Positions 1-59,581 of a DNA stretch of 64,000 bases are shown here, in pieces. The notes beneath the pieces are model-generated. The model did not search any database, was not told the DNA's origin, and saw nothing but the letters and a program-made list of their open reading frames with translations. Source of the DNA: Tetradesmus obliquus (lineage: Eukaryota; Chlorophyta; Chlorophyceae; Sphaeropleales; Scenedesmaceae); NCBI GenBank assembly GCA_030272155.1, contig CP126194.1, forward strand, positions 558,001 through 622,000, given 5' to 3'. Each line of letters starts with the position of its first letter. Position 1 is the first letter of the stretch. A program made the position numbers and the translations under genes.

Positions 1-3000
1 TGCGCCGCCACGTCTGCTGCCGCGCGCGCTGCCGCCGCCTTGCGCTGCCTCAGCGCGTCCTCCTCGCCCTTGGCCTGCTTGGCCTCCTCCTGCAGCTTGG
101 GGGTCACCAGCTTGCTCCAGCGCTCCTGGAAGTACTCCTGCAGGCAGCAATGCATGATGCAAGGCAGCAGAAGAGGTGTGACAACAAGGCGTGAAGGGGT
201 TGACCAGGACACGCATGCGCATCTGCTCCTGGAGGTACTCCTGCAGGCCGGGCAACAAAAACACGGCATCACAAGGTTCGAGAATAAGGCATAAAGAGTT
301 GCGTAGGACATGCATGCGAGAGGGCGATGAACGTACACGGAGCGTCACATTGTCAGTGCCATGTCACCAGTTCAGCCACAGCAAGCCACAGACAGTGCCA
401 TGCACCCGTGCTGATTGTAAATAGTCGTATCTGCTGCACGCCAGCCTGCCAAGAAAGAGTCCACGGATCAACCAGACAAATACGCACAGCAGCCAGCCCG
501 GCACAGCACAAACAAAACACTTTCGCACCTGCAGCACGGTGGCCATGTAGTACACATCCTCTGTGGGCTGGTTGTAGGTGCGCGCATTGTTGAACACCAG
601 CAGCGCATCGCTGTACACCTGCACAGGTCAGAAATCAGAAAATAAGATGGTTGCAAGTCAACTGTCAGGTCGTCGCTGATTTTGAATCGATGGTGTGCAA
701 GCTGCAGATGCAGATCATCAATCACGGAACGCAATTAATCAACACAGCAGCACCGCAGCAGCCATGTCAGCCGCACCTGTGCAGGCTCCCCGTAGCCTCC
801 TTCCTCAGCTTTGACCTTCATGCTGCCAAAGTCCATGGGCGTCTTCACGTATGAGCAGTAGTCGCGGTACTTGGTCACGTCCACGGGCGAGTTGAAGGGG
901 AAGGCAAACTGCGGCAGCGGCAGCAGCAGCAGCAGTGAGGGTGACAGCGCACAACCGCCTGCTGGCGCCGGTGGCAGCAGTTATCTATAGCTGAGGTCCC
1001 TTCCACAGCGCGCCAACTACCACAATAGCGCCAGCAGCAGCATCTCGCTGCCGCTGATGGCCCAGAAACTAAAGCTGTACAGCAACCAGTTCATCCGAGT
1101 GCAATTGATGGTCTTCTGGCGCACACACCTTGCTCCTGCAGCACCTTGCTCCTGCTGCTGACGCGCCATCTGCTGCTGCGGTCACAACACGTAACGTTGC
1201 ATACTCACCTTGTGCGCCATGAGCGCCTTGATCACCGCCACTGCTCGACTTCCGACCGCTACAACAGCAGCAGCATATTGCTACAGCTGCTGATACACCA
1301 CACATCATCTGTTGCATACTCACCTTGTGCGCCATGAGCGCCTTGATCACCGCCAGGCACTGCTTGGCAGCCAACCACCGCAACAGCTGCAGCACCTTGC
1401 TCCTGCTGCTGAAACATCATCTACTGCTGCGGTCACAACACGTGAGTTTACATTGCATACTCACCTTGTGCGCCATGAGCGCCTTGATCACCGCCACTGC
1501 TCGACTTCCAACCGCTACAACAGCAGCAGCAGCTTGCTACAGCTGCTGACACACCATGCATCATATGTTGCTGCGCTCACCTTGTGCGCCATGAGCGCCT
1601 TGATCACCGCCAGGCACTGCTTGGCAGCCAACCACCGCAACAGCAGCAGCACCTTGCTCCTGGTGCGGTCACATTACATTACGTTGCTTTGATGCTCACC
1701 TTGTGCGCCATGAGCGCTTTTATCACCGCCAGGCACTGCTTGGCAGCCACCTCAGCCAGCCTCCGCGAGCGCGCGCCAGCCAGCATGCGGCGCTCACTGG
1801 CGTCCAGCCGCGGCGCCTTGGCTGCTGCTGCTGCTGCTGCTGCGCTGCGCGGCGAGAGCTTCCAGGCAGACACAGCACGCGTCTGCAGCAGCGGCAGCAC
1901 GCGCGAGGGCACAACAAACTCGGTTAGGCTTGAGGAGCACCACAGTGGTATGACAGGAGCCATGGCTAGGAGCATGTGCTAGGTGCAACGCTTGGTTGTG
2001 CATATGGAAGCAAGCGTTGTTGCTGTGCGCACAGCACGATCGCCCTGCACCTCCCAAACACGCACACACAGCACCCACCCGTGCGTTCACTGCATGTAAA
2101 CAGCAACATTCACAACCTAAACCGCCTACCCACCTCGCACAGTGCACCCTCCACCTGTGCGGTGAGCTCCGCAAACTTGCGCTTCAGATTAAACACTTTG
2201 CGCTGCTTCAGCCGCAGATCACGCTCGCTGGGCTGCCGCGCGCCAACAGCAGCAGCGCCATCCGCGGCGCCGCCTGCTGCTGCTGCTGCCTCCTCCTGCT
2301 CATCTGCACCATCCATATCTGAATCCAGCAGCAGCAGCTGATCATGCATGTCTCTGCTGCTGCTGTGCTGCTGCAGAGCTTGCTGCGGGGCGTCCTGCTG
2401 CAGCTGGTGGGAGGCCTGCTGCTGCTGCTGCTGCTCTGCCTGAGGAGCTGCAGCAGCAGGTGCTGCAGCAACAGCTGCGCCGGGAGTGTTAGCTGCAGCA
2501 GCTGCTGCAGCGGCCTCGGCTGCTGCTATGGCTGCCTCTGCAGCAGCAGGGATGCGTGACGCTGCTGCTACTGCTGCTGCCTCCAGCGCTGCGGAAGCAG
2601 GCGCCACTGCGCCTGTGCTCTCTGGTGAAGCAGCAGTGGAAAGGTCCAAGCCTACCACCTGCTGCTGCTTCTGCTTCTGTTGCTGCTTGTGCATGCGCAT
2701 CGTCGCAGCGTTGTGGCTGGCGGCAGCTGCTGCAGCTGCAGCTGTTGCTGCTGCTTGTTCCTGCAGCGCTGCAGCGCCCTGCACCTGGAACGCTGCTGCC
2801 AGTAGTGATGCGCTGTCAACTGCCACTGGCGCAGCAGCTCCTGGCCGCGCAGCAGCCGCTGCTGCAAGTGCAGCTCTGCTGTCTATGGCTGCGCCAGCAG
2901 GTGCTGCATCGCCATGCTGCAGCTTCTGCTGCTGCGCGTCTGCTCCTGCTGCTGCTGTTGTGGCTTTTGCTGCTGCAGCAGCTGCTGCCGGGCCTGCCAG

Positions 3001-4189: not shown

Positions 4190-4212
4190 CCCGGAGACAG
4201 CCTGTCTCCGGG
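4190..4212. repeat. 23-bp palindrome in divergent promoter region
   Basis: CCCGGAGACAG, one C, then CTGTCTCCGGG: two perfect 11-bp arms with one central base. It could be a dimeric transcription-factor site or a small hairpin; function unknown. Confidence 0.8.
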
Positions 4213-4732: not shown

Positions 4733-4738
4733 TATATA
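4733..4738 (+). promoter_or_regulatory. TATA box, Cys-rich secreted protein gene
   Basis: TATATA in CTCCATATATAGGGCC, about 120 bases before the ATG at 4860, which leaves room for a leader of roughly 90 bases. Confidence 0.5.
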
Positions 4739-4859: not shown

Positions 4860-7599
4860 ATGACTGCGCGCAAGGGCGTCAGGGGTGTAATAGCGTGCTG
4901 TGTAATTTTAGCGACAATTATTGCAGCTACACCGGCAGAGGCGCAGGCGCCGAGCGACTGCGGTCAGCAAGGCAAGGCCTGCTGCTGCAAAGGTAGGTGT
5001 GGAGCAGCTGTTGCTGCTGCTGGCCCACAGGATGAATTGGCAGGTACCAGTCGCTAGCACCTGTTGACCTGCTGCGCTGTGCTGCTGCATTGTAGCTTGA
5101 TGCAAACTGGCCACTGTTGCCCCACTCACCCTTGCACTGCGTGCTGCTGCTGTCACCGGTCCTGCTGCGACTGGCATGGCACATCACCACCACCTCAAAA
5201 CCAAACACATCTGCAGCCTTGGACTGGCAGAACCCCAGGTGCTGCTCAAGCGGCCTGCAGTGCACCATGTTCAGCGGCCAAGGCTTTGGCTTCCCACCAG
5301 TGGTGCAGTCAGCGTGCCTGCCCAAAGCAGCAGCAGCAGCAGCAAGCAGCTCACCCAAGGTAACAACTGAGGCAGCTGCAATATTGATTAGCACCTTGAG
5401 ACGGTTTGTAGCAGAGAAAGTCCCAGATGGCAGAGGCTGCTCTGGTCGCTGCCCAGCCTGTGTCCCACAGTGCCAGTCATCAGACGCACCTTTCACATGT
5501 CAATGTTTGCGCATGTGGACCTGCTGGCACCTCTAGTCACTCCAGATCATTTAAAACATCATGTTACACCGCAACTCAACTCACAAGTTGTATTTCATTG
5601 CAGGGCTGCGGCGCAGAGGGCGGCCCCTGCTGCATCTCCACCAGCAGCAATGGCGGCCCGCAAGCCTCCTGCAGCAGCGGCCTGTCATGCATGCCGCCCA
5701 GCAGCGGTTGGGGCAGCAAGGCGCAGCTAGAGGCGCTGTCGGGCGGCTTTGCAGCAGCAGTGGGTGACCCCGCGGTGATGGGCACTTGCAGGAAGTTCAC
5801 TGTGAATGACTGCGGCAAGGCCTTCATGCCCTGCGGCAAGGACATAGGTGAGCTGGGGGTACAGCAGTGGCTGTGAGGTGTCTGGCGCTGCACTTCAGCC
5901 GCACTGTTAACTGTCACTGGTGAACTTGGGTTCCAATAATCAACATGCGGCAGAGGCGTTGCAGCTGCCACCTGGCATACGGCAGAATTTTGCTTTCATG
6001 TTGTTTTTGCGGAAGCCTTTCGTCAGTAGCACCCATTGTACGGTGTTTCCTTACAAAGACACTCCTTGGCTGCATCAGTACAGCAACATGATGTACTGCA
6101 GCATGCAGCCATTGACCCGCACCGCACTGTTGCTTTGGTCGTTTTTATGCAGCTGCCGCTGGCGTGACGTGCCCAGGCAGCCCTGCTGCATGCCCCTCAG
6201 GCTTCTACTGCGCAGCCAAGTTTGATGCTGGCGTCGGCGAGCGATGCATACCACTGCCCAAGAACGCAGGCTCAGAAGGTGCACCCTGCCTGCCCAACAA
6301 CCTGCCGGTAAGATGCGCTGCTGCAAGGCATCACGTGGTCAGATACAGCACCATGCAACTCTTTTCAGCGAACTGCACATCGTGTACTTTCCCAAACGGC
6401 TGCATGGGACGAAGCTTTCACCCCTCTTGTTCTGCGGGAAGCCATTTCCTCGCCATGATGACCTTCATGATGGCTCTCTCACACTCTGATGACCTGTTGT
6501 GTGTTGCATTGCAGGCTGCGCCGGTTGTGAAGTTCAGCGGCAAGGAGCTGGCCCCGGCCTTCTGCAGCGGCACTGCTGTCTGCTTCAGCGCCACTGCTGG
6601 TGACACCACCGGCTTCACCCATGGCCAGCCAGCACAGGCCAAGAGCCTGGCCAGCCGCATCAGTGGCACACGGTGAGGACCAGGCAGCAACCAAGGCATT
6701 CTCTGTTTTCACAGAATATCTTTTTAGTATAACTTTGTCGTTGTAAGATGTACACAAGATTCCTCTGCCGCGGCTGGCAGCTGGCAGCAGCAGCTTGGCC
6801 AGCCAGCAGCAGCTAGCACTGCAGGTCGCACGGGCAATGCAACGCGGTGTTGACATGTACTGGTGCATTCAGCTACAGCAGCAACAGCACGGTGCAGGGC
6901 AACATGCCAGGCAGCAGCTACACACCAGCAGATGCATACCGTGTAGGGCACGGCCAGTGTTCAATCTCATGCGCTGCTGCTGCTGCCGCTGCCTGGCTTC
7001 AGGTGCATCAATGTGCCGAGTAATTGCGGCTCCGCACCTGGCAAGCCCTGCTGCCCCTCCGGCTTTGGCGTGGTCACAGACAAGCCACTGCCTAGCACTG
7101 GCACAGCCTGGGCCAACTCGCCATGCAGCGGCGGCGCCAGCAAGTACGGCATGTGGTGTGAAGGTGCGTGGCTTGTTGCTTGGTCGGCTTTGGTTGGGCA
7201 AGCAGCAAGCTGATATCATCACAGAAGTTGCAGCAGCAGCATCCTGCATTGCTTGCGCAACTCCAAAAGGAAATTACACCACTTTGCAGTGCAGAGGTGC
7301 TGCACTGGTTTGCCAGGCCTTAGCTGCAGGTGCATGGCCCTCAGCCGCTGCTGCTGCTGCTGCTGCTGTATGCAGGGAGCTATGTCGCCTTTGGCGGGCA
7401 GCCCATGGGCACCTGCAGGGCCAACCCGGAGTGTGGCGGGGACAAGCAGCCCTGCTGCAAGTACAGCAAACCAGAGATGGCCGGCGTGGCCTGCCCCAAC
7501 CTGGGCGGCCCAGGCGCTGGCTACTGCTCACTGAGTTACAAGTGCAAGCTGTGCCCCAAGACGCTGGACCTTGTGGAGGACTTGCTGCGCTGCTACTGA
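4860..7599 (+). CDS. Secreted cysteine-rich modular protein, 405 aa
   Basis: Seven exons: 4860-4992, 5217-5359, 5604-5847, 6153-6307, 6515-6672, 7003-7163, 7376-7599; phases agree and the sum is 406 codons with TGA. Residues 1-28 form a signal peptide: basic start (MTARKGVRG), hydrophobic core (VIACCVILATIIAA), cleavage probably after AEA. The mature chain is a string of Cys modules that begin with a CG-x(3-6)-CC pattern (DCGQQGKACC, GCGAEGGPCC, NCGSAPGKPCC, ECGGDKQPCC). Several continue into SSGLxC or PSGF. Module boundaries roughly follow exons. The spacing recalls disulfide knottin-like repeats, but I do not recognise a named family. It is likely exported to the wall or periplasm; any role (adhesion, inhibitor, defence) is a guess. 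The TATA element at 4733 fits this start. Confidence 0.82.
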
Positions 7600-12300: not shown

Positions 12301-15002
12301 AGGGTCTGCAGCCTGGCAGCTGCAGCTGCAGTCCATGCGTATGCATAGCTGCATGAGCAGCTGCCAAGCTGTATTACCAGTGGCTGCAGCTGCTGGTCAT
12401 GGTATGACGTTGTGTGCCGTGTTGGGACACTGTGTGGCCCAGCTGAGGATGATTGTTGTGGCACCCGCTGCTGCTTGACCGCGCGCATGCAGGTGGTGCA
12501 GCAGCTGGAGAACCAGCTGGCCAACCTGGCGCACTGCAAGCTGGGCGCTGCTGGCGCGGTGCCGCTGGCTGCTGCGCTGTCTGCGCAGAACAGCATCGTG
12601 GCGCTGGACCTGCGCGACAACGGCCTGGACGGCAAGGTGGGCACCGGGGAGGGGTGGGGTCGGGAGGGGGCAAGCAATGCGGTATGGACGCCATTTTTGT
12701 TGCGTCCCTGGTCTGGCAGCTGCGTATGGAGGCGCTTGCTGCAGTTGCAGGCAGCTGCCAGCCCATATGTGCTGCGCGTATTGTTTTTCTTGGGCTGAGC
12801 CGGACATTCGCATGCTGGTGACATACAATCGCACTGCGGCGCGATATGGGATAATTGACGCAGGATATGCTGTCTGGTCAAAAGGATGTATGTTGACAGG
12901 GGCTTTCGTGTGTGCTGCTGCGTGTGCTGCTGGTCAGGCCGTGGGGCTCATCATCTCAGCCATCATCACCGCCACGGCAGCACACATGACGGAAAAGGCA
13001 CGCCAGCGCAACATCAGCTTTGCAGGGCAGTCCATGGCCGCTATTGGTGCAGCAATGAGCGCAGCGGCCATCCAGCAGCCGCCACACCAGTTTGCAAGCG
13101 ACGCTTGCTGTGCAGCCGGCAGCGGCGGCTGCAGCGAAGCAGGGGCTGCTGCCGCTGCTGCTGCTGCTGCTGCAAGTGGCAGCTTCAAGAAGAGTAGCCA
13201 TGCCCGCGGCATGAGTGTGTCATGGGATGCTGCAGCCTTAAGCGCAATGAGTTCTGCATCAGGGCGCCCCGACAGCTTGCATGTGCGCATTGATGAGGCA
13301 GATGGAGACCAGCAATTTGTTGCAGCGGCAGCGTTAGCACCTGGTGCTGACGCTGCAGCGCAGTTGCAGTATAGCTGCACCAGCCCTGGAGCGCTGCAGA
13401 CAGACAGCAGCAGTGGCTGGACGCTGCAACAGGCTGGAGTAGAGCCAAACAGCAGCTGCAGCAGCCCAACAGCTGCAGCAAGGCGCGGCAGCACCGGCTG
13501 GTCATCTGGCGGCGGCAACACTATTTCTTCTGGCAGCCCTGACTGCCCGGATAACTCGCTCAGCGGCGCCAGAGCTGCTGCTGCTGCTGCTGCTGCTGCT
13601 CGTCGCAGTAGTGCTGCAGATGGTGAGGTGCGCTGGCTCATGGATACCTCTCAGGACGGCGGTACTAATATTAGTAGCACTGCTGCCAGCAGTGCTGGGG
13701 GCTACAGGGCTGTAGCTGGGCTGGGGCCTGCAGGGCTGGGGCCTGCAGGGCTGGCTCAGGAGCAGGATGTAGCTGCTGAGGCGCAGCTGGCGCTGGCTGA
13801 GCTGCACAGCGAGGCCTCAATGCTGAGTCCAAGTGCTGGCAGGGCGAGCTTTGGGTGGCAGGGGCTGGGGCGGCAAGGCAGCGCAGTCAGTGTGGCGGCA
13901 GGGGCAGGTGCTGGTGATGCTGATGGGCTCGAATTGGATGATGCTGACGATGATGATGGTGGTGGGCCTGGCGGCAGCAGCAGCAATGAGGCATCCTGGG
14001 CGGCGGCCGGCGCATGCCAGTCACAGCCGGGCAGCATGCCTAGCTCACCCAGACGCTCCGCTGCAGGTGCAGCAGCAGGGTTTGGCTTGCAGGGTTCTGG
14101 CAGCAACAGCAGCAGCAGCGGCCAGCAGCAGCAGCAGCAGCCGGGGTCGCCGAGTGGCAGGGCTTCCCTGGCAGTCAGCAGGAGCAGCAGCAGGCGCGGC
14201 AGTGCTGCTGCGGATGGCGGCGGCGGCGTGTATTCTGTGCTGAGTGAGCTGGACCTGTCGCAGAACCCGCTGGGGGCCACAGGCGCCAAGGTGGTGGCAG
14301 AGGTGCGCGCAATAATGCTGCAGGCGGCGGTGTGGTTGTGCCTGCGATTTAAATGCAGAGGCGCCAAGAACAGTTGAATGTTGAATGTTGTCATAGTAAA
14401 CATTACTAGGTCCCTTGGTTCCTCGCCCTTCATCTCCCTGCGCCCAGCTGCTGGACCCGGGCCGCAACCCCAGCCAGTTCCTGCTGTCCGCCAACCTCTG
14501 CTCCACTCCCCAATGAGAAAAATTAAACACACTCACTCCTCGTCTCCCTGTCTGCGCAGCTGCTGGACCCGGGCCGCAACCCCAGCCAGTTCCTGGTGTC
14601 CCTCAACCTGGCCAAGTGCGGCATCCCAGAGGCGGGCGGCCTGGCCCTGGCTGCCGCGCTGGCTGCGGGCAACCTGCGGCTGCGTGTGCTGGGCCTGTCG
14701 CATAATGCGCTGGGCAACAAGGCTGCTGCTGCCTTTGGGGAGCTGCTGGAGGGCAGCCACACGCTCAAGGAGCTGGACCTGGGCTGGAACCAGATCAAGG
14801 TGGGGGGCTGGGAGGCTACACACTAGAATGGCTGGTGTTCACAGCACCACACATGATGCATGATGCATCGGGAGCAGGCGGGCACACAGTGGTGGCTGGT
14901 GATGTGCATGTGCAACCAGCAACACCTTTGCCGCACAGCGGGAGGGATTCCTCTCACAGACGCAACCACCTGCAGACACACATAACACTGGCGCTGCTGC
15001 TG

Positions 15003-15086
<84 letters not shown>

Positions 15087-16760
15087 TATGATGGTAAATG
15101 ATCCCCGCAGGCAGAGGGAGCGCGCGGGCTGGCGCGGGGCCTGTCTGCCAACGCCACGCTGGCCAAGCTGGTGCTGTGCTGGAACGGCCTAGAAGTTGGC
15201 GGGGGTGCTGCCATGGGCGAGATGCTGGCGCTGAACATGGGGCTGAAGAGCCTGGACCTGAGCCACTGCAGGCTGGGGCCTGAGGCCTGCCTGCTGCTGG
15301 GGGAGGGGCTCAAGGTGCGGCGTTGTGTTTATTGTTCCTATGTGTTGCCTGGAAGGGACCCAGCCATGCAGCTTGCTAATGTGTGTCGTGTGCCTGCTGC
15401 TGCTTCTGCTGCTGCTGCTTGCCTGCAGGCCAACGTGGTGCTGGAGTTACTGCTGCTGGCCGGCACTGCCCTGGGATGTCTGATGCAGCTCATCAATGCG
15501 TGCTGTGCGCCTGCTGCTGCTGCTGCTGCTGGCTGCTGCTGTCGTGCAGGCCAACGTGGTGCTGGAGGTGCTGCTGCTAGCAGGCAACGACATCGGCGAG
15601 GACGGTGCGCGCCACCTCATGACGGCGCTGGCCGCCAACAGCAGCCTGCGCTTCCTGGGGCTCAATGGATCCAACCTGTCAGGTGGGCCGTTTGTGTTGT
15701 GAGGGGAAAAGGCTGTGAGCGTGTTTGTGTTGTGAGGCGGAAAGGCTGTGAGCTTGTAATGTGCGAGGGCGGGGGGGGGGGGGGGCAGGAGGCCGTTTGC
15801 CAGGCTGGCAGCCCCCTTATGCGGTAGAAGCAGCGCGGCGCAGCTATCAAGAGCAGCACCAGTAGTGCTACTGCCAAGCTTGTTCCATAGAATCCGTTGC
15901 CTTGCAAGCTGTTAGCGCCCCAACTGCCGCACAGCTGCAGGCAGCAGTGCCACCTGCTTATGTGTGTCTGCCCTGCAACTGCATGTCGCTGCGCTGACAA
16001 TGTGCCCCTGCTGCCCCTGCATGTAGCTGCCGTGCACGATGCTGCCGGCAGCCCTGCTGACTTCAACCCCGCCAGCCCTGATGGCAGCTACACGCTAGAC
16101 CTGAGTGTTGCTGCTGAGCGTGCTGTGGCTGTGCAGCTGGCGGAGCTGGACAGGGCCAACACCAGCGGCAGCGGGCCAGACCTGATGCGCAACATAACGC
16201 TGGACGGCAAGGTGGGGTGCAGCCGGCCGCGTGTTGGTACCCTCTGCTGTGCAGCATGGACTCAATGGTTTGGGGATGACACCGCCGCTGCTGCTCACTT
16301 TATTGACGCCGTCTATGTCACACGTGTAGCACTGAAATTGCCTACTTATCCGCGCTGGCTGCATACATTCGACACATTGCAGGCCATCCCCTCGGCCAAG
16401 AAGGCCAACTGGCCTGCCATGCTGCCCAGCCGCGGCAGCCTGGCCTGCAGCTTTGCCTCCTCCAGCCTGCGCCGGCCCCTCGGGGTGATGGAGCCCTCCA
16501 AGCTGGCCACGCTGCAGCGCCAGCTGCGCGCGCCCAGCATGAGCGACAGGGAGCGGCTGGAGCTGGTGGCCATGTTCGCGCCCTTCGCGCTCTTCAGCTG
16601 CAAGCAGGTGCGGCGGCTGCGGCGATGCTGTGCGCATGTTTGTCTGATTGTGGCTGGAGTGGCAGGGCTTGGGGGTAGCACGCAGTGTGATGCTCAAGCT
16701 TTGGTGCTATGCTGATATCATGCTGCAAATTGTGTCAACAGGCTGCTCAACAGGTTGCTG

Positions 16761-16801
<41 letters not shown>

Positions 16802-17797: not shown

Positions 17798-17832
<35 letters not shown>

Positions 17833-18299: not shown

Positions 18300-20038
18300 A
18301 GATGGGCATCCAGCTGGGGCCTACTACTGCTGCTGGCTTGACCACCACTGTTGCCGCTGCTGCCGCGCTGAGTGAGGTGGCTGCAGCTGATGCTGCTGTG
18401 CAAGCGCTGCGGCAGGCCACAGCTGCCGGGCTGCTGCTGATGTCAGCGCAAGTGCGGGTGCTGGTGGAGGCCTTTTCGGTATGTGACGCCTGGCTGAGTT
18501 CAATGAACTCAGTTCATTGTGTCAACTGCTTTGAGGGTGGCGCAGCTGTGCATGCAGTGTTACATTGCCTTGCTGAATGTTGCTGTACAGGATGTGAGCA
18601 CAACGCGTACCTGGCATGCGTACCTGGCCATATCACCCCACAGCAGTTGCCTTATCCAGTTGGCTGGCACTGGCTGTTGATTGTGTATGATTCTTGTGTG
18701 TTGCTGCTGCCACTGCTGCTGCAGCTGTCCCCGCACAGGGTTGAGGTGGCAGTGCTGTGCTGGCCAGTCACCCTGGACAGGGCAGACAACTACTGGACAG
18801 TGCTGTACTGCCTACAGGTGTGTGGGATTGTGTGTGGTGGTGCGTCAGCATTGTCGCCTGGGCAGCAGCTGCAGCAATTCTGCAGGACACACTCAACGCT
18901 GAAAGTATGAAATGCCTGTTGTACTTGCTTGTTCATGAATCCAACGTTGCTTAAGAAACAGCTCCTGCCGTGCCGCCGCTGCACTCACTCGACCACATCC
19001 ACACCTAACCCACATGCTGCTGTTCTCCTCTGCCTGCCCCACCCCACGCCGCTGGACACTTGCATGCACACACCTCCTGCGCAACAACCGCACCCAGTGC
19101 CTGGAGCAGTCCAACCTGCTGCAGCGCCTGGGCCCCTGGCGCCTTTATATCCCCGGCCACGCCTCCTGCCACTGGGTGCTGGACCTGAGCAACCCCGGCC
19201 ACGAGGAGGTGGCGCGCAAGCTGGTGGGGCTGGCAGTGGCGGGAGGGGAGCTGCCCAACTTCTGGAACATACGCCTGCGCGGTGAGCTGGCGGTGCTGTG
19301 GCAGCAGCAGCAGCGATGGCTGCACGATAACACTGCTGTGCCGCGGTACAGACAGTGTGCCGCTGCTGCCAGCAGCCGCATGCCATGTGTTCAGCTGTGC
19401 TGCGCTGCCTGATGTGCTCCTGCCGCGCGCTGCCTCCTCCCCTGCCGCAGGCGTGAAGAAGGCGGTCAACGAGAACCAGAACATGTGGGGCATGCTGACC
19501 GCGGAGTCGTTCACGCCCTTCCTGGAGTTTGACTTCCTGGGCGCTGACGCGTGGGCGGCATCTGGCAGGAGCGAGGCCGAGGTGGCGGGCATGACGCCTG
19601 GCGACAAGCTCAAGGCCCGCGCCAAGCAGGTGTGCCGGCTGCAGGGCGGGGACAATAGGAGGGGTGTGGAAGGAGGCGGCGGCATTGGTGTTGCTGACAG
19701 ACAGGATGCATGCGTGGTTGTGAGCTAAGGGGTGAAAGGATGTGTGCAGCGGCCTTGCTGGCAGGCAGCATGAGCGGTGTGCAGGATGCAGCTGTTGCAT
19801 GGCTCCGCTGTAGTATTGCCAGGGTGCGGCCGTTGTCAGCCACACAGCGCATGGTGACTTGCCGCGTCAAGCTAGCTGTGTATCATAAGCTGCATCTCAG
19901 CCTCTGCGGGTTTGCGTGCTGCAGGCCGCGCGGCTAGAAGCGCAGCGAGCCAAGCAGCTGTACCCCTACAGCTGCGATGGCAGCAGCTGGGCGCGCCCGC
20001 CATGGGCCAGCTACGACAGCCTCATGGCGCCACAGGTG

Positions 20039-20083
<45 letters not shown>

Positions 20084-22167
20084 CGGTTGCTTCCAGCCAG
20101 GGGTGAGGTTGCTGTAATTGGTCTCTGCCTGTATGGGGCTGCAATGCTGCAGGAAATGCTGCTTCGGACTGTGCTGCTGCAGAGACAAGCAAACAACCTT
20201 TGCCTGTAGCCTGGTGTTGCATGTCTGTGAGCTTCGTTTGCTCGCACCAGACTTGCTGCTGCCTGCTGAATGCCTGCCTCGCACTGGCGCTGCTGCTGCT
20301 GCTGCTGCAGCTGGGCAAGACGCCCTGGGTGGCAGCCTGGGACCGTCTGCTGCGTGTGGTGCTGCGCCTGGAGCTGCGCTGCGGCAGCCTCAGCAGGGAC
20401 AGCAGCGCGCTGCAGGAGGCCTTCAAGGCGGCGGCTGTGTCAGAGCAGCGCGTGGCAGCAGCAGCGGCACCGGCAGCAGCAAAGGCAGGCAGCCGGGGGA
20501 ACAGCAGTGGGGCGGCCGGCAGCCAAGCAGCCAAGGACGCAGCGGCAGCAGCAGGCGAGGGTGCAGAGGGTGGCACAGCAGAGGTAGGGGAGCTGCGTAT
20601 CACAGCACCTGAGCTTGAAGAGGTGAGTGGCTGCCGTCTGTGCATGGTGCAGCAGTCAGTGTGGCAGCGCATGCTACGCTTGCACTCACTGCTGCCAAGT
20701 GCGCAAGCATACCTGTGCATTCGCTGCTTGGTGTGCAAGCATATCTGTGCATGTTGCAGCATGCCCTGCAGTGACGTCGGCAGAGCAGAGAGGTGAAGCC
20801 GTCCTGTTGTTGTGGCTGCAGCTGCTGCTGTTGTACACATGCTATGCTTGCGCTCCCTGCTGACGTGTGTGCAAGCATACCTCTGCAGTGGCTACTTGGT
20901 GTGCAAGCATATCTGTGAACAGTGCAGCATGCCCTGCAGAGCACCAGCATAGCGTTTTATTTCTTCTCTTGTTGCGGCTGCAGCTGCTGCGTGACTGGGG
21001 CTACAACAAGTCGGACATCGGGCACTACCTTAAGCTCATGGAGGCCACACTGCAGGCAGACGCAGATGCAAAGGCAGCAGCCAGGGTGGCAGCTGCAGCC
21101 GCCGCCGCCGCTGCAGAAGCAGCAGCAGCAGCAGCGGCGGCTGCAGCTGCGCTTGACAGTGACAGCAGCGCCAGCTTGACGCGGCAAGCCACAGGCACGC
21201 CCAAGTCAGCGCTGCGCCCCAGCAGCAGCCGCCTAGGTAGTGCTGATGCAACCAGCTTCAACAGCAGGAGCGCTAGCCCAAGCAGTGATGGCAGCGTGCA
21301 CAGTATTGCTGCTGCCGCCGCCTCTAGGCCTGCTTCTGGTCCGGAGGCTGCTGCTGCTGCTGCCAGCAGCAGCAAGCGGCGGCAGGGCTCAGCCAGCACA
21401 CAGTTTGCAGCAGGCAGCAGCAGCAAGGGCAGCTCCGACAGCAGCAGCAGCAAGCGTGCTAGTGCGGCAGGGAACATCAGCAGGAGCGCCAGTCCGGCAG
21501 GCGCTGCAGCGGCACGCCGCATGAATGCGAGTGAGAGCGGCAGCTCTGCAGCGGCTGCCAGCAGCAGCGGTGGCACGTCTTCTGCTGGTGCCAGCAGCCG
21601 TCCATCCAGTGGCCAGGTGTCAGCTCTGGCTGCAAAGTTGGAGGTGAGCAGGCGGCATGTGGGGGGGGGGGGGGGGGGGCTGCTTGGGTTGCCATGCAGT
21701 TGATATCTGCACCTTTTGATGAGGAGGGGTGACTGTAGAAGCAGGGTAAGAGGACTTGCACAGAGCAAAGTGTGCTGGGCGTTGACAGCGGGTCTGTTAC
21801 AGCTCAGCTAGCAAGTTGCGTACACTGCTTCAAGTTGAACTTCTGAGCAGCCTGTGCATGCACTAGGCGCATAGTCCCATGCTGCGGGCTGCCAGTGCGC
21901 TGAAGCTCCTGTGCGCTGCTGTGCTGCTTCTGGGTGTGTGTGCAGGCCACCTTTGAGCGAGGCCTTACCCTCAGTGAGTTCCTGGCAGTGGTGATGGCTG
22001 AGCCCCCGAAGCAGGTTCGGCTCAAGGATGTGGCCCTGACAGTCAGCAGCATACTGGGTGCTGGAGGCGCAGGGGGCTTGCTGGCGAAGCTGAAGGAGAA
22101 GCAAAAAGCCCCAACAACAAGTTCGGAAGCCCCTGCTACGCTCGAGGAGCAAGCCTCGCCAGCCTGA
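9324..22167 (+). CDS. Giant leucine-rich-repeat protein with DUF4476-like region, about 2265 aa
   Basis: Twenty-five exons: 9324-10027, 10329-10419, 10647-10985, 11261-11518, 11596-11613 (18 nt, least sure), 11769-11903, 12177-12266, 12493-12636, 12938-14302, 14560-14799, 15111-15314, 15550-15682, 16027-16211, 16383-16607, 16807-16996, 17239-17359, 17649-18066, 18302-18478, 18725-18817, 19098-19281, 19451-19629, 19925-20035, 20311-20622, 20984-21643, 21946-22167. N-terminal polyQ is followed by a helical Ala-rich part. Ribonuclease-inhibitor-type LRRs lie at about residues 545-1240 (VLGLSHNALG, LKELDLGWNQI, LKSLDLSHCRLG). Around 1350-1440, MSDRERLELVAMF to the FSIGPERV region resembles DUF4476. 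Three modules follow a Y-x-LDLS/LNL pattern (SYTLDLS, GHYELNL, CHWVLDLS), each followed by an Asn-centred tail. Ser/Ala-rich ends. Function unknown. The start at 9324 is the first in-frame ATG; more 5' exons are possible. Confidence 0.8.
14448..14520 (+). repeat. Decoy copy of LRR exon 10 start
   Basis: CTGCTGGACCCGGGCCGCAA, preceded by a pyrimidine-rich CCAG, repeats the true exon start at 14560 (shift 112 bp). The copy decays into unrelated bases after about 55 nt and has no donor. Confidence 0.9.
14994..15082 (+). repeat. (CTG)n microsatellite in LRR-gene intron
   Basis: About 29 CTG units on the sense strand with one CTA interruption near 15004. It lies about 30 bases before the acceptor of the exon at 15111. 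Confidence 0.95.
15429..15549 (+). repeat. Decoy copy of LRR exon 12 start
   Basis: GCCAACGTGGTGCTGGAG after TGCAG at 15428 repeats the real acceptor and exon start at 15550 (shift 121 bp). The flanking CTG-rich intron is part of the repeated unit. Confidence 0.9.
15771..15785 (+). repeat. Poly-G run in LRR-gene intron
   Basis: Fifteen consecutive G on the sense strand, inside the intron after exon 12. See the finding on sense-strand G runs. Confidence 0.9.
20697..20983 (+). repeat. About 162-bp tandem duplication before LRR exon 24
   Basis: The segment with GCAAGCATACCT, GTGTGCAAGCATATCTGTG and GCAGCATGCCCTGCAG occurs at about 20700 and again at about 20867. The unit includes the acceptor: GTGGCTGCAG|CTGCTGCTG (exon-like start 20822) copies the true GCGGCTGCAG|CTGCTGCGTG (20984). 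Confidence 0.85.
21661..21679 (+). repeat. Poly-G run in last LRR-gene intron
   Basis: Nineteen consecutive G on the sense strand, 17 bases after the donor of exon 24. Confidence 0.9.
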
Positions 22168-23315: not shown

Positions 23316-26300
23316 ATGGCGCTCACACAGCCTCGCATCTTCACCTTCATTAAGGGCCAGTCCAAGGGCGACAAGAGCATGAAGGAGCTGGTGCGTGTCT
23401 TGAGCGAGTTGCTGCTGCCGGACATAACGCAACTGTCGCTGCTGCTGTGCTCTGCATGCATGGCAGCATAGCCCATTCATATACTTTTATATGCATCCTT
23501 TGCGTTTGTACAGCGGCGCTTGCAGTGCTTGCGTGCCTTTCGAACTGTTGTATCACAGTGCCAGCTCATCATTTCTCGCTCCTGCTATTTCTCTGCTGCT
23601 CGCAGCTCGGTGGCAAGGGTGCCAACCTTTGCGAGATGGCCAAGTGTGGCGTGAACGTGCCTCCCGGCCTGACCATCACCACTGAGGTGTGCCAGGAGTT
23701 CTACAGGGTCGGTGAGTGCCGCCAGACTCCCTGCTGCTGCTACGGCTGCTTCCACTGCTGCAGCTGCTGCTGCTTGCCGCATATGCTGCCGCAGCTTGCA
23801 CACTATCACCTGCTAATCAGCGCCAGCATCCTTGTACAACAGCCATCCAATCAGACCAAACCATTCGACGCGTCCCACTGCTGTACCCATTTCCCGCCTC
23901 CTCCACACACTCGCTGACTCACCCTGCTACCACCTCTCCCTGCTACTGCCTCTCCCTGCTGCCTTTCCCCGCTGCCTCTCCCCACTGCTGCTGCTGTAAC
24001 ACTCAAAACAGGCGGCGACCTGCCCCCCGGCCTCATGGACGAGGTGCGTGCCGCAGTGTCCCAGGTGGAGGCCGCCATGGGCAAGAAGTTTGGCGACGTG
24101 AACAACACGCTGCTGTTCAGTGTGCGCTCCGGCGCTGCCATGTCCATGCCCGGCATGATGGACACCGTGCTCAATGTGGGCCTGAACGACACCGTGGTGG
24201 AGGGCCTGGCAAAGCAGGTCAACGAGCGCTTCGCGTGGGACTGCTACAGGCGCCTGCTGCAGGTGAGGTCTGGGCGTATGTGTCTGCGGCTGGGCCATGG
24301 GTGTGTTTTACGGCGACAGAATGCTGCCGTTGCATGTGGTATTGTTTAGGCTAATGCTGCTTCAGGCTGTGCCTTTGCCCTGCTGCTGAACGGCACGTGC
24401 AAGCTGTCACCTGCAGGCATGCACCTGCCTGGCCTCTGCCACAATCCCTACCTGTGTTGTCCTCCTGTTGCACGCTGTTGCTCGCTCCCCTGTCCCCTGC
24501 CCTCCAGCAGCTGTTTGTCGGCGTGATGCTGCGCACCCCCCCTAGTCTTTTCAATGCTCCCGTCCTCCTGCCTCTGCCTGACAATCTGCTGCTCTCTGCC
24601 GCCCCCTGCACCCCCTCCCCTCCCACCCCCTGCACAGATGTTTGGTGATGTGGTGCTGGGCACCCCTTGTTGTTTTGATCGATGCTCCCCATCCTGCTTG
24701 TGTTTGACAATCTGCTGCTCTCCCTTCCCTTCCCTTTCTGCAGATGTTTGGTGATGTGGTGCTGGGCATCGAGCACGAGGAGTTTGAGCACGAGCTGTCC
24801 GCCATCAAGAAGGCTGCCGGCGCCAAGTTTGACATCGAGCTGACCGCCGCGCACCTGAAGGAGCTGGTGACCAAGTACAAGGCCGTGTATTTGAAGAACA
24901 AGCAGGTGCTGCCCGAGGACCCATGGGAGCAGCTGCGCATGGGCGTGGACGCCGTGTTCAGGTGCGGTGCATGGTGTGGGTGTACGAAACGGTCAAGTCA
25001 AACTGATTGTGCTGAGGTGGATCTGATGCATGGGTGTGGATGCGTGCTCAGAGGCTGGAAATTGTGCAGCGCTGTGAGGAGTGCTGTGTATTTGGGAAGC
25101 TGCGCGATTGGTAGTAGCAGGCGTTCCGCTCCAGTGCTCTTGGTGCTGAAGTGTTGGCTGGGTCAAGCTTGACAGGCATGTGCCTGTATACTCGACCGAG
25201 CCAGCGCTTGGGCACTGGCAGCATTACTAACACCCTGCTGCGCCACCACTTCGGCGCGCGCAGCACATTATGATGCTTAACACGAGTTTTGTTAGTATAC
25301 TTGTGTGTAAGATGCTTGTGTGTAAGATGCTTGTGTGTAAGATGCTTGTGTGAGTGAAGCCATCACTGCAAGCTGCTGAAGATATCACTGCAAGCTGCTG
25401 ACACGATAAGACATGACAAGACAGCCGGCGGATCAAACATTATCCTGCATGCCACCCAGGATTGCTGAAGTTGTCTCAACCCTGTTTGCTGCCTTCTGTG
25501 TGTCTTCCCCTGTTCCCCTCTGCTGCCCCTCATCCCCGCAGGTCCTGGAACATCCCCCGTGCCGTCAAGTACAGGGAGATCAACAAGATCACCGGGCTCA
25601 AGGGCACAGCCGTCAACGTGCAGACCATGGTGTACGGCAACGTGAACGACAACAGCGGCACGGGCGTGCTGTTCACGCGCAACCCCGCCAACGGCACCAA
25701 CGAGCTCTACGGAGAGTTCCTCATCAATGCGCAGGGCGAGGACGTGGTGGCAGGCATCAGGTGGGTGTGGGTGTGGTGCCTGCTGGCGCTGCTTTGCAGT
25801 GTGCTGCTGCTGCTGCTGCTGTTGGAATAGACAGCAGCAGGGCGAGGACGTGGTGGCAGGCATCAGGTGGATGTTGATATTGTGCCAGGTGTGGTGCTGC
25901 TGTGCACCCCCGTGCAGGACGCCCATGCCCATCGCGCTGCTCAAGGAGAAGATGCACCTGACAGTGATCTGCTGCTAAGTCTTCGCTGCTGCTGCTGCTG
26001 CCTGCCGCTCTTCCACCCCTTGCAGGACGCCCATGCCCATCGCGCTGCTGAAGGAGAAGATGCCCACCATCTACAAGGAGCTGCACGACACCGTGAAGAT
26101 GCTGGAGCGCCACATGCACGACATGCAGGACACGGAGTTCACGGTGCAGGACGGCGTGCTGTTCATGCTGCAGACGCGCAACGGCAAGCGCACCGGGCCC
26201 GCAGCGCTGCGCATCGCCATCGACCTGGAGGCAGAGGTGAGATTGGTTGTGGTGCTACTGCTGCTGCTGCTCTATATCTGTTGTGGTGCTGCTGCTGCTG

Positions 26301-26697
26301 CTGCTGCTCTAGAATGTAAGTGAATCAAACAGTAAGTTGCACCTGTTGTATCGCCATCGACCTGGAGGCAGAGTTGAGGCAGGGTGCTGTTGCTGATGCC
26401 GCACATGCTTCTGCAGCTTTGTGATGCCATTTGCAACAGTTTCGTGGCCATAAACAGCATGAGAACATTGCTACTGCTTGTGGTGCTCCGTGGCTATCGC
26501 CAATCAAGTGGCAAGCTTTTCGCGCCTGGACTGGGCAGTATCGTCTAGCCCACGCGAAACGCTTGCTCCTTGATTGGCACAACAGCTCAGCCAATGCTTG
26601 TCTCTCACTAGTCTAGGATAACCATAAATTACATTAAACACACTTCACACCATCTGCATATCATGTATAACTTGTAGTCTGCTGGCAATTAATCCTC

Positions 26698-26728
<31 letters not shown>

Positions 26729-44532: not shown

Positions 44533-44605
<73 letters not shown>

Positions 44606-45018: not shown

Positions 45019-45071
<53 letters not shown>

Positions 45072-45226: not shown

Positions 45227-45319
<93 letters not shown>

Positions 45320-47264: not shown

Positions 47265-50200
47265 ATGGGTACCCTAGCTCGCCTCAAGGCAGAGAAGGAA
47301 AGGCTGCAGAACGAGGGAGCCAGGAAGATGTTCGTCAGCTCTAGCATAGTGCAAGCGTTCAGGGTGAGCTGCTGGGCGGGCGCTAGCCTGAGCTCTTCTG
47401 CTGTGGCACCTCACACCAGCTGGCATCAGATGCTGTCAAGCAGCAGCAGCAGCAGCACCTGCATACGACTGCTCTGTATGCATGCGCGGGCTGTTATGCA
47501 TTCATACTGCCCCCAACATGCCACTACAAGATGCTTTGCTGCTACTGTTGTTCAGTTCAGCCCCGCATGCATGCAGCATGGATGCAGCAAGCACGGGTTT
47601 GGCTTCCGCACTGCTGCTGCTGCTGCTGCTGAGCAACAAACCAGCATCCAGCCACATAGACAAGCACAATGCGCACGAACAGTTGCATCACACACATCAT
47701 CACCCTGAAGCACAATGTGTACTCTTTTTCACCCCCACAGCCCCACCTACTCACCACCTCCACACCACCCTGCTGCTGTTTTGCCGCCACCAGGTCACGC
47801 ACAACAACAAAGAGCTGCTCTCCAGCGAGTACCCCCTTATCCTGGCAGTACCCCCAGGCGGCAATAACCCCAATGCACTACCCCTGCTAGATGCCTCAGT
47901 GGGCCCCAGCCTCAGGTGGAGCTTGAGCAGCGTGAACCATGTGTTGCGCACCGCCTCCAAGCACGGCGAGCCCACCTACATATTTGCGGGCATCCTGGAC
48001 AATGACCCGCAGGCCTTCGTGGCTGTCACGCTGCGCAAGAGTGAGCGAGGGAGTGCTGCTGTGCTGTTCTGAGTGTTTAGGAAGGGCAGCAATGCAGTGC
48101 GCGGCATCCTGGACAATGACCTTCAGGCCTTCGTGGCTGTTACGCTGCGCAAGAGTGAGTTAGATAGGGCTGCTGTGCTGTTTTTAGTGTTTAGGAAGGG
48201 CAGCAATGCTTTGTGCGGCATCCTGGACAATGACCCGCAGGCCTTCGTGGCAGTTACGCTGCGCAAGAGTGAGCGAGGGAGTGCTGCTGTACTGTTTTGA
48301 GTGTTTAGGAAGGGCAGCAATGCATTGTGCGGCATCCTGGACAATGACCTTCAGGCTTTCGTGGCTGTCACCCTGCGCAAGAGTGAGTGAGGCCGCTGCT
48401 GTGCCTGTGTCTCCTTTGGCAGAGGCAGCAAGGGAGTGCTGCTGTGTCTGTGTTTTCTTTGAAAAGGGCAGTAATGCAGAGTATGGAAAGCTGGATGCTT
48501 GTCTGTTTTGAGGTGGGGACATGGGTGTCGTGGGAGAGGCTGAATGGACACTGTGCAGTGCCTGTTGCACTGCACTGGTTGTGTGACATGTGCACTGCAG
48601 AGAGCTGGGTATTGTTTGAGCATGCATGCATGCATGTATGCATGCATATCGTGGGGTGTTTCTCCCGGGGCGCTGCAACAATGCATCACCATCCTGGTCC
48701 TGACTTTTGCGCATCAAGCGCGCAGTTTGCTTGCATCAGCTAGTGTCCAGGTATGGATCTGACGCTTAGTAGAGACAGACCAGGACAGTAGCTGATGCGA
48801 GTAAATTACATCCGTGCATGCGCTTGCATGTATGCTTGTCAGCAGCTTGCAACAATGTACATACACAGGTCCTGTGGGTGCGGCACTCTGCGCTGCTTGC
48901 AGGATGTGCAGGCAGCATGCTGGCGCCTAAGTGGCACAGCAGAACCTCAATGACCCGCCACTGCTCACTGCATTCACCCTTCACCTGCTGCTGCTGCTGC
49001 TGCTGCTACCCTCCTTCCTCTCTCGCTGCATCTACCCTCCATCTGCTGTGTCCGCAGGCACGCCTGACAACGAGCTGTCTCACCTGGAGGCAGAGCACAG
49101 TTGGTGCTGCGGCCCTCTTCTTCCCACTCCTCCCCTAAATAAATCACACACTCACCAGTGGTTATGCATGCTCGCTGTACACTTTCCCCCCACACAGGCA
49201 CCCCTGAAGACGAGCTGTCGCACCTGGAGGCTGTGGTGGGCCGTGCCAGCCAGCTGCACATCGCAGAGAAGAAGCCCATGCAGGTGCCTGATGCGGGGCA
49301 GGTGAGACATATGTCCAAATGACAATGATGTTGTCTGCTGGCTGCTACACTATTGTGTTGTGTTACGAAAGACAAGGCCATGCAGGTGCCCAACGCAAGG
49401 CAGGTGCGGCACTGGCTGGACTGCAATTATGGTGCTAGGTGGCTGCTGGTGGCTGCTGCCGTTTTGTGTTGTGTTGCGGGGGCAAAGCACATGGTGGTGC
49501 TCGACGCGGGGCAGGTGCAGCGCAGCACATTGTTGTAGATACGATGGTGGCTGGCTGCTGGTGCAGTACTGCTGTATCAGCATTGACTTCGCGCATGATT
49601 GGCTGTCCGTGGTGGCAAGTGCAAAGATGGACAGTCTAGCATGAAAAATGCAAAGCTGCGCACCTTCAAGCATTGCTTGGCCAGGAGTTGTAAATGCATG
49701 GTGGCTTGGATGCAGCAGACCAGGGCCAGGCAGAGCCGCTTGCCGGCCGCGCCGGCGCAGCAGCTACTGCCGTCGCCACTGCCTTCGCACCATTTTTGGC
49801 CCAGCCTGCTGTGCTGTCCAGGCTATGCCCCGCATGTTCCCGCCACTCACCATGCACACCATAACCGCCCTTGCCTCTGTTCTCGCTCTGTTCTCTGTTA
49901 CTGCTGCAGGTGGTGTCTGCGCTGGGCAAGGGCCTGAAGCAAGTGCTGGGCATCTCCAGCGGCAGCAGCAGCGCCCAGAAGCAGCGCGAGCGCGAGCAGG
50001 CGCGCGAGCAGCAGCAGCAGGAGCAGCAGCAGCGCGAGGAGGAGCAGCGCCGCAGGGATGCTGCAGACAGGGTGGCGTATCTGGCTGGGCGTGCTGGTGT
50101 GGGTGCTGATGCTCCCCGGGTGGCGGTGCATGGCCGGCCAGTGCCTGAGGTGGAGAAGCGGTATGCGCCCTCTGCGCCATATGCGGTGAGTGCCATGCTG

Positions 50201-53873: not shown

Positions 53874-56800
53874 TCACTCCTGGCGCGAGCTGGCCCGGCC
53901 CCTGCCCTGCTGGCTGGAGGTGCCGATCTCAGCAAAGATGCCGTCCAGGCCTGTGCCTGACCTGGCACTGTCTGCGTCACTCTCAGGCGGGCTCACGTTG
54001 GGGCCGTGCCTGCAGGCAGCAGGTCACACCAAGCCAGGCCGAAAATTACGCCATGTCAAACGAATGCAAGTCACATGCAGCATAGCAGCCTGAGCACTGC
54101 CAACCAAGGTAAACACAAGGCAGGAGCACCGGCGTCTCCTCCTCAGCATCACACAGCCAAGCAGAAACCGCGGCATTGCAGCTGTTTTTGCTACGAAAGC
54201 ATGCAGCCTGCACTCCTCACTCACTTGTTTTTCATTAGGCTTGACAGCAGGCCACCCCTGGCTTCGCCATCACCATCGCTGCGGCCAGTGAACAGCTGCA
54301 GCATTGGCACACGCTCACTCCGGCTGGCAGCAGCTGCACTGCTGCTGCTGGCACCGCCTGCGCCATCTGCGGCGCTGCTGCTGCTTGCACCAGCACTGCC
54401 TGCTGCTGTGCTGCTGCTGCCGCCCTGCTGGCGGCCAAAGTTGAACCACGACTTGTTCTTCTTCATGCCTGCAAACACAGCGAAGCAGCAACGCCAACAG
54501 CCATGCAGTGAGCAAAACATCGTGCATAGCCATACAACGCCATACATCACGCAAGCTCATGCTGCACATTGTGCATGCTCCCCCCTCTGCACACACTCTT
54601 GCTTCAACACACATAGCCCCTGAACACACCCACACTTCCATGCCACCCGCCCCGCTCACGCTTGCGCCCCATGAGCCTCGGCAGCTGCAGCTCCATGTTG
54701 TCTGCAGCCTGTGAAAACACTCCCCAACACCACAGCCACACACATTGTCCATACCCCCACCCCACCCACAAACAGCCCCCCCCCCCCCCCCCCGGGGCCC
54801 GCTCACGCTTGCGCCCCATGAGCCCCGGCAACTGCAGCTCCAGGTCGCCAGCAGCCTGTAAACACACTCCCCAAAACCACAGCCACACAACTAGTCCATA
54901 ACCCCCGGGGATGGGCCATCCACAAGCACCCGCCCGCGCCCAGCTCACGTTTGCGTCCTGTGAGCCCCGGCAGCTGCAACTCCAGGTCGTCGGCAGCCAG
55001 GATCTCGCCGATGCGCAGGCCGTTGGCCAGCGCCTCGCCCTCCTTGCGGATGAGCAGGCGACCCTTCTCGGTGTACTGGTCGTCCACGTCATCACTGCGG
55101 AGCGGCAGCAGCAGCAGCAGCAGCACCAGCAGCGGCAGCAGCAGCAGCACCGGCAGCAGCAGCAGCGCCAGCAGCAGCAGTCGCAGCAGCAGAACACAGG
55201 GGTTGTCTAGAGGTGAGCAGGAACTGGATGGGGGCTGGCTCAAGGGAGAGGGCGCACGCATGGCTTGCACGTGCAAGGCATGGATGCCGCCACAAAGCCA
55301 GCTGGCACGGAGCTGAACACGATGCAGTACAGGGTCAGCCATGCCCTTAGCCGTCACAAGAGGGGGCCACACGTTTGCTTGCTTCTTCCTGCTGTTGCTG
55401 GCTCCTGCTGTTGCTAGCAGAACACGAACAAGGGTAATTGCCTGATTGAGGCCATTCGCAAGAGATGCAGTACAACCTGTGCTGTTGCTCACTTGTCGAA
55501 CTTGTACTTGCTGCTGACGCACGCGCCCGCCAGTCGGTCCCACAGGCGCAGCCATATGAGCAGGCAGTGCACCACCAGCAGCAGCGGCAGGTAGGTGTTC
55601 AGGTGCTTGCCCAGCACAGGCAGCACCGTCATGGTGCCCATGTTCTGCGGCAGCGGCAGCAGCACACACGACACAGCAAGATTGGCACCAAAAGCCAGTG
55701 ATGTACAACATAGGCTAATGCAGCATGCGCATAAGGTGACACGGAATGTCTGCGATCAGAGATATGAGCTACAACAATAAGACAAAACTCTGCAGTAACG
55801 CATAGACTGATGTGCACTCCAACCATGGATGCAGCCTCCTCCCCCCCCCCCCCCATCCCCCACAAAAAAAACAAGCTGTACCACCCAGCACGCCACAGCT
55901 GCGCCGTGATGCATCCTGCCGCACCTGCGTGAACACGGTGGTGCCCCCTGCCTCGTCGACCACGCCGTCCATGTGTACCATGTGCAGCAGGTTCCAGCAG
56001 GTGGGCGCGGCAAAGCGCGCCATCAGGCTGCCGTTCTGCATCAGCGCGGCGCCCGTGGTGGTGCGCGGTAGCAGCTTGTTGTAGTTGAATGCGTTGATCC
56101 TGCAGCAGTTGCATGCAAAATCCATGAAGGCATAAGGCCAGGGCAACGGGGAGCAACCAGGCAGTCGCTCAAGTTGCTGCCTACCACCTACTAGTAGTGC
56201 ACGCCAAACCTGCCAGACAGCTTATCCACGTAGCGCAGCAAGCAGTCAAGGCAGGCAGCACAGCACCGGCATGGACAGCACTACACTCTCGCTGACAGCT
56301 GGCCAGTCCCAGCCCGCCGCCAGCCTTCAAGCAAGACATCGAGCCGCTCAGCAGCAACCCATGCGCTCACCTGAACAGCGCAAAGTAGGTGCAGATGCAG
56401 ATGTAGGCCAGCGGCATCATCACCAGCAGCTGCAGGCCGCCCTCGCTGCCCAGCGAGCCCCTGCGCAAGCAACAGGCAGCAGCGCGAAACCATTCAATCA
56501 TCAAGCAACATTACATATGCGAAACATGCATGCAGGCTGTTACATGTGCTCTTACTTCAGAGTCAACATGCATCACCCAACTGCTGCGTAGACCCCACCC
56601 TTCCTGATGCCCTGCAGCCCACCTGATGGCCCTGCTGAATGGTGACAGGTCTGGGTGGCCTCCTGTGAAGATGGTGGCCTCGCTCCACACCACGCAGCCG
56701 CTGAAGCACACCAGCAGCACCGCCATCACCTTGCGCCCGACAGGCTGCAGGTGGAAGCAAGCAACACAGCAGATGCAGCAGAGATGCACAGATGACACTC

Positions 56801-59581: not shown

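Follow-up and report, generated by a model that had tools for sequence, protein, structure and literature searches.

Tandem copies of exon-intron junctions, lying inside the adjoining introns, are a genome-wide phenomenon in the green alga Tetradesmus obliquus and are concentrated at junctions, roughly one in five of those sampled carrying them. The analysis centred on a 64,000-nucleotide stretch (bases 558001–622000 of contig 4, CP126194.1; hereafter the window, with positions counted from its first letter) of a 104.7-Mb genome of 17 contigs. The exon-derived parts of the copies differ from their exons mostly at silent sites, a pattern that would not be expected if useless copies were simply decaying. 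The favoured reading, with a probability of about one half, is recurrent duplication of a ~120-bp segment across the junction combined with exchange of the copies with the exon or its alleles. An earlier note on the window had described recurrent tandem junction duplication in several of its genes, which is borne out; the genome-wide extent and the coding-like divergence are additions to it.

Frequency and placement of junction copies

The genome sample consisted of twenty 10-kb stretches, with every one of the 17 contigs represented; L003 (N) was excluded, leaving 19 loci, and five further loci, sampled later, formed a held-out set. Genes were predicted with a self-trained hidden Markov model (HMM), trained on the pyruvate phosphate dikinase (PPDK) gene and then on its own predictions, which replaced an initial gene model that had drifted into tiny exons. 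Its output contained 327 predicted exons, 204 of them rated confident (passing score, length and repeat filters), and it placed the borders of 13 of the 15 PPDK exons exactly as in a spliced alignment. Copies were sought with junction 50-mers at a score of at least 40, unless stated, and up to 600 bp on the intron side; an exon part shorter than the 16–79 bp range found would escape this search. Sequence outside predicted genes is termed intergenic and includes untranslated and missed gene parts.

In the window and the 19 loci, an intron-side copy accompanies 37 of the 184 donors and 38 of the 186 acceptors. Unrelated sequence gave none (0/184 and 0/186, together 0/370), while exon centres gave 5/110 and 0/109 (5/219), the wrong side of the exon 8/176 and 8/181 (16/357), intron stretches 60–110 bp from the junction 29/370 and intergenic stretches 13/424. 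In the held-out loci, copies were present at 11 of 58 junctions and at none of the 42 exon centres or the 58 intergenic stretches. The density within the window, which the earlier note had singled out as its most striking feature, is not exceptional and falls short of that elsewhere, with 11 of 124 junctions affected against 64 of 246 in 18 other loci.

Tandem pairs were also sought independently of the gene models and formed 116 clusters, of which 63 lie at junctions, 44 in introns, nine in intergenic sequence and none in exons only. Random placement anywhere would put 33.0, 39.4, 38.5 and 5.1 clusters in these four classes, the figures for placement confined to a cluster's own locus being 33.4, 56.0, 22.8 and 3.8. 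A junction count as high as 63, or an intergenic count as low as nine, arose in none of the 2000 placements of either kind. This comparison of junctions with intergenic DNA and exon centres, proposed with the original observation and run here on the sample, came out in favour of the junctions. Purely intronic pairs show no excess and within loci lie below expectation (14 of 2000 placements were as low). An assembly artefact in which diverged haplotypes were placed in tandem would yield coding-type divergence and diverged introns, but exon-only pairs are absent (0/116) and arrays reach six copies, beyond what two haplotypes could yield, and this explanation is barely credible.

Affected junctions number 0/17 in L007, 0/14 in L012, 10/19 in L005, 9/16 in L009 and 17/18 in L013, and from the low end (L007, L012, L017) to the high end (L005, L009, L013, L015) the loci range from no junctions to nearly all. 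Locus L013 looks partly like a tandem duplication of whole exons; at 6652–7130 it holds about five near-identical tandem units of ~97 bp with a more diverged unit ahead of them. Repeats in L008 (1449–2358) are spaced at multiples of 72 bp, are ~70–76% alike and do not resemble the junction class.

Form and coding-like divergence of the copies

Among the 76 junctions with copies, 42 have a single copy and 34 have two to six. The nearest copy lies 86–177 bp away at 55 of the 76 and 203–402 bp away at the other 21; the former 55 have a period of 124 ± 18.5 bp, with a weak excess of periods divisible by three (24/55), and an exon part of 16–79 bp that takes up no more than 0.61 of the period. The exon and intron shares of the unit are negatively correlated (r −0.59) and the unit length is therefore the fixed quantity. 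As the earlier note had described, both 5′ and 3′ exon edges are affected, copies differ by substitutions and the splice dinucleotide is often kept (68/75), 33 of the 37 copied donors still having GT and 35 of the 38 copied acceptors AG. The intron part of the nearest copy is recognisably homologous in 20 of 57 cases. Two kinds of copy alternate in introns of a bromodomain gene of the window and of locus L009, and the dimer itself was therefore duplicated. Introns with a copy are longer, with a median of 415.5 bp (n = 34) against 273 bp without (n = 112; p = 0.016), some copy-bearing introns being measured too short where the model called a copy an exon; the intron lengthening anticipated earlier is thereby upheld.

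A useless copy is expected to mutate equally at all codon positions. Between exons and their intronic copies, the mismatches at codon positions 1, 2 and 3 number 48/1080, 50/1065 and 172/1070, and across 1025 codons 151 differences are synonymous and 90 nonsynonymous, with three stops and a per-site ratio of 0.20. With the held-out loci added, the totals are 181 silent and 100 changing differences and three stops in 1202 codons, a changing-to-silent ratio of 0.55. The split is found with one copy per junction (129 silent, 66 changing, three stops), in the window alone (20 and 12) and with L013 removed (160 and 87); 43 of 119 copies overlap predicted exons, and it persists for the other 76. Neutral copies simulated beside a constrained exon gave ratios of 1.06–1.88 at settings whose totals (258–301) bracket the observed 284. 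At two-fold degenerate third positions there are 24 transitions and four transversions, at four-fold positions 55 and 65 (p = 1e-4), a contrast that points to codon structure, and against base composition, as what underlies the third-position bias. In the light of the simulations, neutral decay does not account for the mostly silent differences between exon and copy.

The intronic copies also differ from each other in this manner, with 63 silent and 52 changing differences and transitions to transversions of 10:1 at two-fold and 18:33 at four-fold positions (p = 0.0015; the pairs share copies and are not independent). Intron homology is recognisable in 20 of the 40 copy pairs, and in these 20 there are differences at 60 of 802 positions of the exon part and at 186 of 1170 positions of the intron flanks, the latter counted in best-aligned stretches only. 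Five of these 20 pairs belong to the bromodomain gene and have no exon-part differences; without them the exon part stands at 60/624. Exon parts served as the search key and their overall conservation is somewhat inflated, but no route was seen by which this could shift the silent-to-changing split. At the 19 junctions with at least two copies, codon positions 1, 2 and 3 hold 18, 19 and 35 changes private to a copy and 2, 5 and 15 private to the exon; the copies do show the bias, though less strongly than the exon does. Loss of the signal with age was rejected, the split being present both with recognisable intron homology (34 silent, 18 changing) and without it (80 and 57). Serial budding from an evolving exon in one lineage was also rejected, the algebra giving a per-site ratio of at least ~0.5 against the observed 0.20.

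Simple neutral tandem duplication, with copies decaying freely beside a constrained exon and the junction excess arising from a detection effect together with selective removal of exon duplications, would account for the absence of pairs from exon centres, the longer introns and the 20/57 homologous intron parts. Exon parts would mutate freely on one branch only, keeping junction pairs visible for longer. However, the observed 0.55 (100/181) falls below the whole simulated range at matched divergence, the copy pairs with homologous introns hold 25 changing and 27 silent differences where a ratio well above 1 is expected, and the nine intergenic pairs are too few for the 38.5 expected. This explanation is unlikely.

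The second splice site of a full exon is not clearly in evidence. Among A-type copies (n = 60), 12% have a best nearby donor that scores above 5, against 9% in the background and 95% for real exons, and the corresponding figures for acceptors near D-type copies (n = 57) are 42% and a background of 35% (p = 0.13). The complete cryptic exons that copies had been suggested to seed were rejected, the second splice site not being clearly above intron background in this or in a narrower test; mutually exclusive or cassette exons, with a 3′ and a 5′ splice site on each copy, similarly show no clear excess over that background. The copies are therefore half-exons.

Purifying selection on these half-exons is the main rival to duplication with exchange. 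The copies would either be used in some transcripts, as alternative terminal exons or edges, or be protected because conversion of the exon by a damaged copy would be harmful. The codon-respecting differences among the copies themselves, the retention of GT and AG and the identical exon parts of the bromodomain copies favour such selection, which is nevertheless judged doubtful given the lack of a clear second splice site, the three stops in 1202 codons and the relatives, whose introns were glimpsed through open frames running from intron into exon. P0121, with a near-identical PPDK exon 7, has 65 residues of upstream intron and no copy in that frame, where the copy of T. obliquus lies 135 bp upstream; P0122 has ~36 residues there, too few to decide. 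The motif of a phosphate-carrier exon of L005 occurs twice in 0 of 94 homologues, few of which show an intron. Among the 19 homologues read, 18 have no intron at that place, while P0187 seems, by eye, to have one at the same place as the phosphate-carrier gene here, its 37 residues containing no copy and falling just short of the 117 bp needed. On this thin evidence the copies look lineage-specific.

Affected genes of the window

Five genes of the window carry copies. Pfam identifies the products of three as bromodomain, LRR and LMBR1-like proteins, the fourth gene is that of PPDK, and the fifth encodes a 522-aa product with no Pfam match. At a score of at least 36, 12 of 124 junctions are affected (two in the LRR gene, six in PPDK, three in the 522-aa gene and one in the LMBR1 gene), and at least 40 leaves 11 of 124. 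The bromodomain donor at 1700 failed the exon filter and, counted in, brings the total to 13 junctions in five genes. The earlier note had given fourteen junctions in five genes; the tandem copies themselves are confirmed, while the count differs and permits no one-by-one match. Nearest copies lie 102–142 bp away. The features of the PPDK gene are as follows.

23316–30795, plus strand: PPDK gene, 15 exons, from spliced alignment to P0001 and P0002
24635–24768, plus strand: acceptor of exon 24744–24961 and intronic copy 106 bp upstream, exon part 25/25
25731–25874, plus strand: donor of exon 25542–25760 and intronic copy 106 bp downstream, exon part 30/30
25895–26063, plus strand: acceptor of exon 26026–26236 and intronic copy 108 bp upstream, exon part 37/38
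26213–26378, plus strand: donor of exon 26026–26236 and intronic copy 137 bp downstream, exon part 24/24
26738–27039, plus strand: acceptor of exon 26977–27142 and copies 135 and 227 bp upstream, nearer copy 61/63
27556–27775, plus strand: donor of exon 27373–27596 and intronic copy ~111 bp downstream, with clear homology in the intron part

The spliced protein-to-DNA alignment with two relatives gives 14 introns, all GT-AG, and a translation of 888 aa, the same as P0001; the closest relative is Scenedesmus sp. NREL 46B-D3, 94% identical. A shuffle-controlled search of the adjoining introns found copies at six of the 28 junctions, with scores of 50–116 against a shuffle maximum of 29 (100 shuffles per junction). 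Two further junctions, scoring 27 and 25 where their shuffles peaked at 22 and 20, are borderline, and the remaining 20 have no copy. The copy of the donor at exon 26026–26236 carries TT in place of GT. Exons 6–7 with intron 6 were searched for a second genomic copy, and none was found among the 40 of 334 candidates that were scored; a second PPDK copy was rejected on this basis as the source of the diverged copies.

Most of the 100 own-genome matches listed trace to the CTG-rich part of PPDK intron 6 (26898–26961). Intron 14 holds two 44-bp units, 97% alike (30385–30471), shorter and more alike than the ~120-bp class. Proteins P0013–P0017, labelled Phytophthora cinnamomi or P. ramorum, are 72–73% identical to the algal PPDK and rank among the green algae; gene transfer or mislabelled sequence is possible.

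The features of the other genes are as follows.

1209–1749, minus strand: donor array of the bromodomain gene, exon edge ending at 1700, intronic copy donors at 1581, 1465, 1324 and 1209
14422–14609, plus strand: LRR gene, acceptor of exon 14560–14799 and intronic copy ~112 bp upstream, exon part 47/50
15429–15586, plus strand: LRR gene, acceptor of exon 15550–15682 and intronic copy 121 bp upstream, exon part 33/37
20670–20990, plus strand: tandem pair of period 168, nearly all of it intronic and classed as intron, barely touching the acceptor of predicted exon 20984–21204
47985–48439, plus strand: 522-aa gene, donor at 48040 and copies at +114, +228 and +342, with clear homology in the intron parts
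49055–49521, plus strand: 522-aa gene, exon 49198–49301 with acceptor copy 140 bp upstream and donor copies 102 and 213 bp downstream, the donor copies weak (score 36)
54648–54998, minus strand: LMBR1 gene (by Pfam), donor of exon 54949–55094 and copies at 142 and 289 bp

The intronic copies of the bromodomain gene show no mismatch in the 32–50 bp exon part in five of six pairs, and differ from the exon at two third codon positions. Repeats of the type (GCT/CAG)n are frequent along the window (14993–15083, 44535–44603, 45227–45319 and others).

The HMM mistook some junction copies for exons in the bromodomain and 522-aa genes. The converse, that many copies are real exons of repeat-containing proteins missed by the gene models, would fit the 43 of 119 copies that overlap predicted exons and the partial likeness of L013, with 17 of 18 junctions affected, to tandem exon duplication. 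It is nonetheless very unlikely, as the silent excess holds both without L013 and for the 76 copies outside predicted exons, the PPDK protein layout is fixed by the main product of the relatives, and second splice sites are lacking.

Origin of the copies and known systems

In the favoured reading, a DNA-level process would repeatedly make local tandem duplications of ~90–165 bp in gene bodies, and a unit spanning a junction would leave an extra exon edge within the intron. Splicing would ignore the copies and keep to the outermost sites, leaving the mRNA unchanged while the intron grows by one unit, and the copies could grow on into arrays and dimer arrays. Unequal crossing-over or gene conversion would keep the exon-derived part coding-like, either by exchanging it with the exon or by drawing it from the exon's other alleles. 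The exon edge would be the part conserved enough to pair, so that intron parts would drift while exon parts follow the exon. The ~120-bp unit may be set by the patch size of replication or repair, which is a guess. The duplication step is well supported, and the arrays, the period, the junction excess, the unchanged PPDK protein layout and the longer introns are observed. Three routes to the coding-like divergence are seen as possible: alleles as source of the copy or as its refreshment, frequent exchange with the exon together with selection against damage, and use of the copies.

Several points weigh against duplication with exchange. The exchange step is inferred, and the gene models are self-trained predictions. 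The allele-source route requires, by algebra, a synonymous allele divergence of ~0.15, which is very high, and a decay since then of only ~0.02. Copies of the bromodomain gene and of L009 that were already intronic before the dimer duplication have few or silent differences in their exon parts. Both the identity of the bromodomain copies and the predominance of silent changes among the long copies of L009 weigh against the allele route alone. The share of affected junctions varies strongly from gene to gene, and the held-out loci are unevenly split, with copies at nine of 28 donors and only two of 30 acceptors. It is tentatively proposed, as a possibility, that about a fifth of junctions have an intronic reservoir of half-exons, each an edge with one splice site, kept coding by exchange or selection, and that units of ~120 bp grow introns from their ends, with readable spare junction copies being retained.

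There is no sign of copies creating new introns, as had been suggested earlier. An intron-making duplication should leave both intron ends alike, and donor and acceptor ends are alike in only one of the 146 introns between confident exons (20036–20310, whose donor end lies in a GCT run); intron gain with a period equal to the intron length was rejected accordingly. A dispersed introner-like family was also rejected, on two stretches. The 400-bp array at 48001–48400 matched only itself in its own genome, in a search that skips simple repeats and very common words, and the listed matches of 26026–27142 elsewhere fall in CTG-rich parts of intron 6.

Gao and Lynch reportedly described, in 2009, internal gene duplication, in which segments within genes are duplicated, introns included. 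The copies are adjacent, same-orientation duplicates of a gene segment within the gene and belong to that class. Both involve within-gene segments that include introns; the accounts of internal gene duplication cited in the available parts of PMC3443670 and PMC4974935 mention no ~120-bp unit, junction focus or coding-like copies. The closest published case found, as far as the accessible part of the paper goes, is the potato RdRp gene, where a new intron arose from one duplication that spanned an intron-exon boundary (PMC4974935). The two cases share a junction-crossing tandem duplication and copies that differ by substitutions. In contrast to that single event in one gene, about one-fifth of the sampled junctions are affected here, at both edges and with arrays of up to six copies, and no new intron was seen. 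Tandem duplication as a source of introns has been reviewed (PMC3443670), and in Drosophila it has been argued for, a duplicated proto-splice site giving an intron as long as the unit (PMC2891723). The copies resemble the Drosophila cases, as presented in the part available, in the local duplication of coding sequence near splice motifs, but the intron ends here are not alike. Introners, according to the available text, copy themselves into many genes (PMC9860276); the genome-wide change of intron content is common to both, whereas the units tested here are private to their own junction. A minisatellite is a near-identical head-to-tail array; here 42 of 76 junctions have a single copy, 34 have two to six, and intron parts are recognisable in 20 of 57. 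The available parts of PMC4974935, PMC3443670 and PMC2891723 describe neither arrays at a fifth of junctions nor coding-like copies. No report of such copies in green algae was found in the open PubMed Central literature, judged by titles and the starts of abstracts. Tandem duplication at or within genes is thus of a known kind and, as far as the accessible parts of these sources go, the junction arrays at about one-fifth of junctions and the coding-like copies are new.

To our knowledge, intron lengthening and origin have been argued mostly from single cases. With about one-fifth of junctions duplicated, in arrays and at both edges, the process becomes measurable in its unit size, rate per gene, splice-site fate and exchange with the exon. 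The copies are also a warning for gene finders, the HMM used here having taken those of the bromodomain and 522-aa genes for exons. If the coding-type divergence comes from selection, intronic half-exons would have a use that the titles and abstract starts of the literature found do not describe; if exchange with exon alleles is its source, each junction array would record past recombination.
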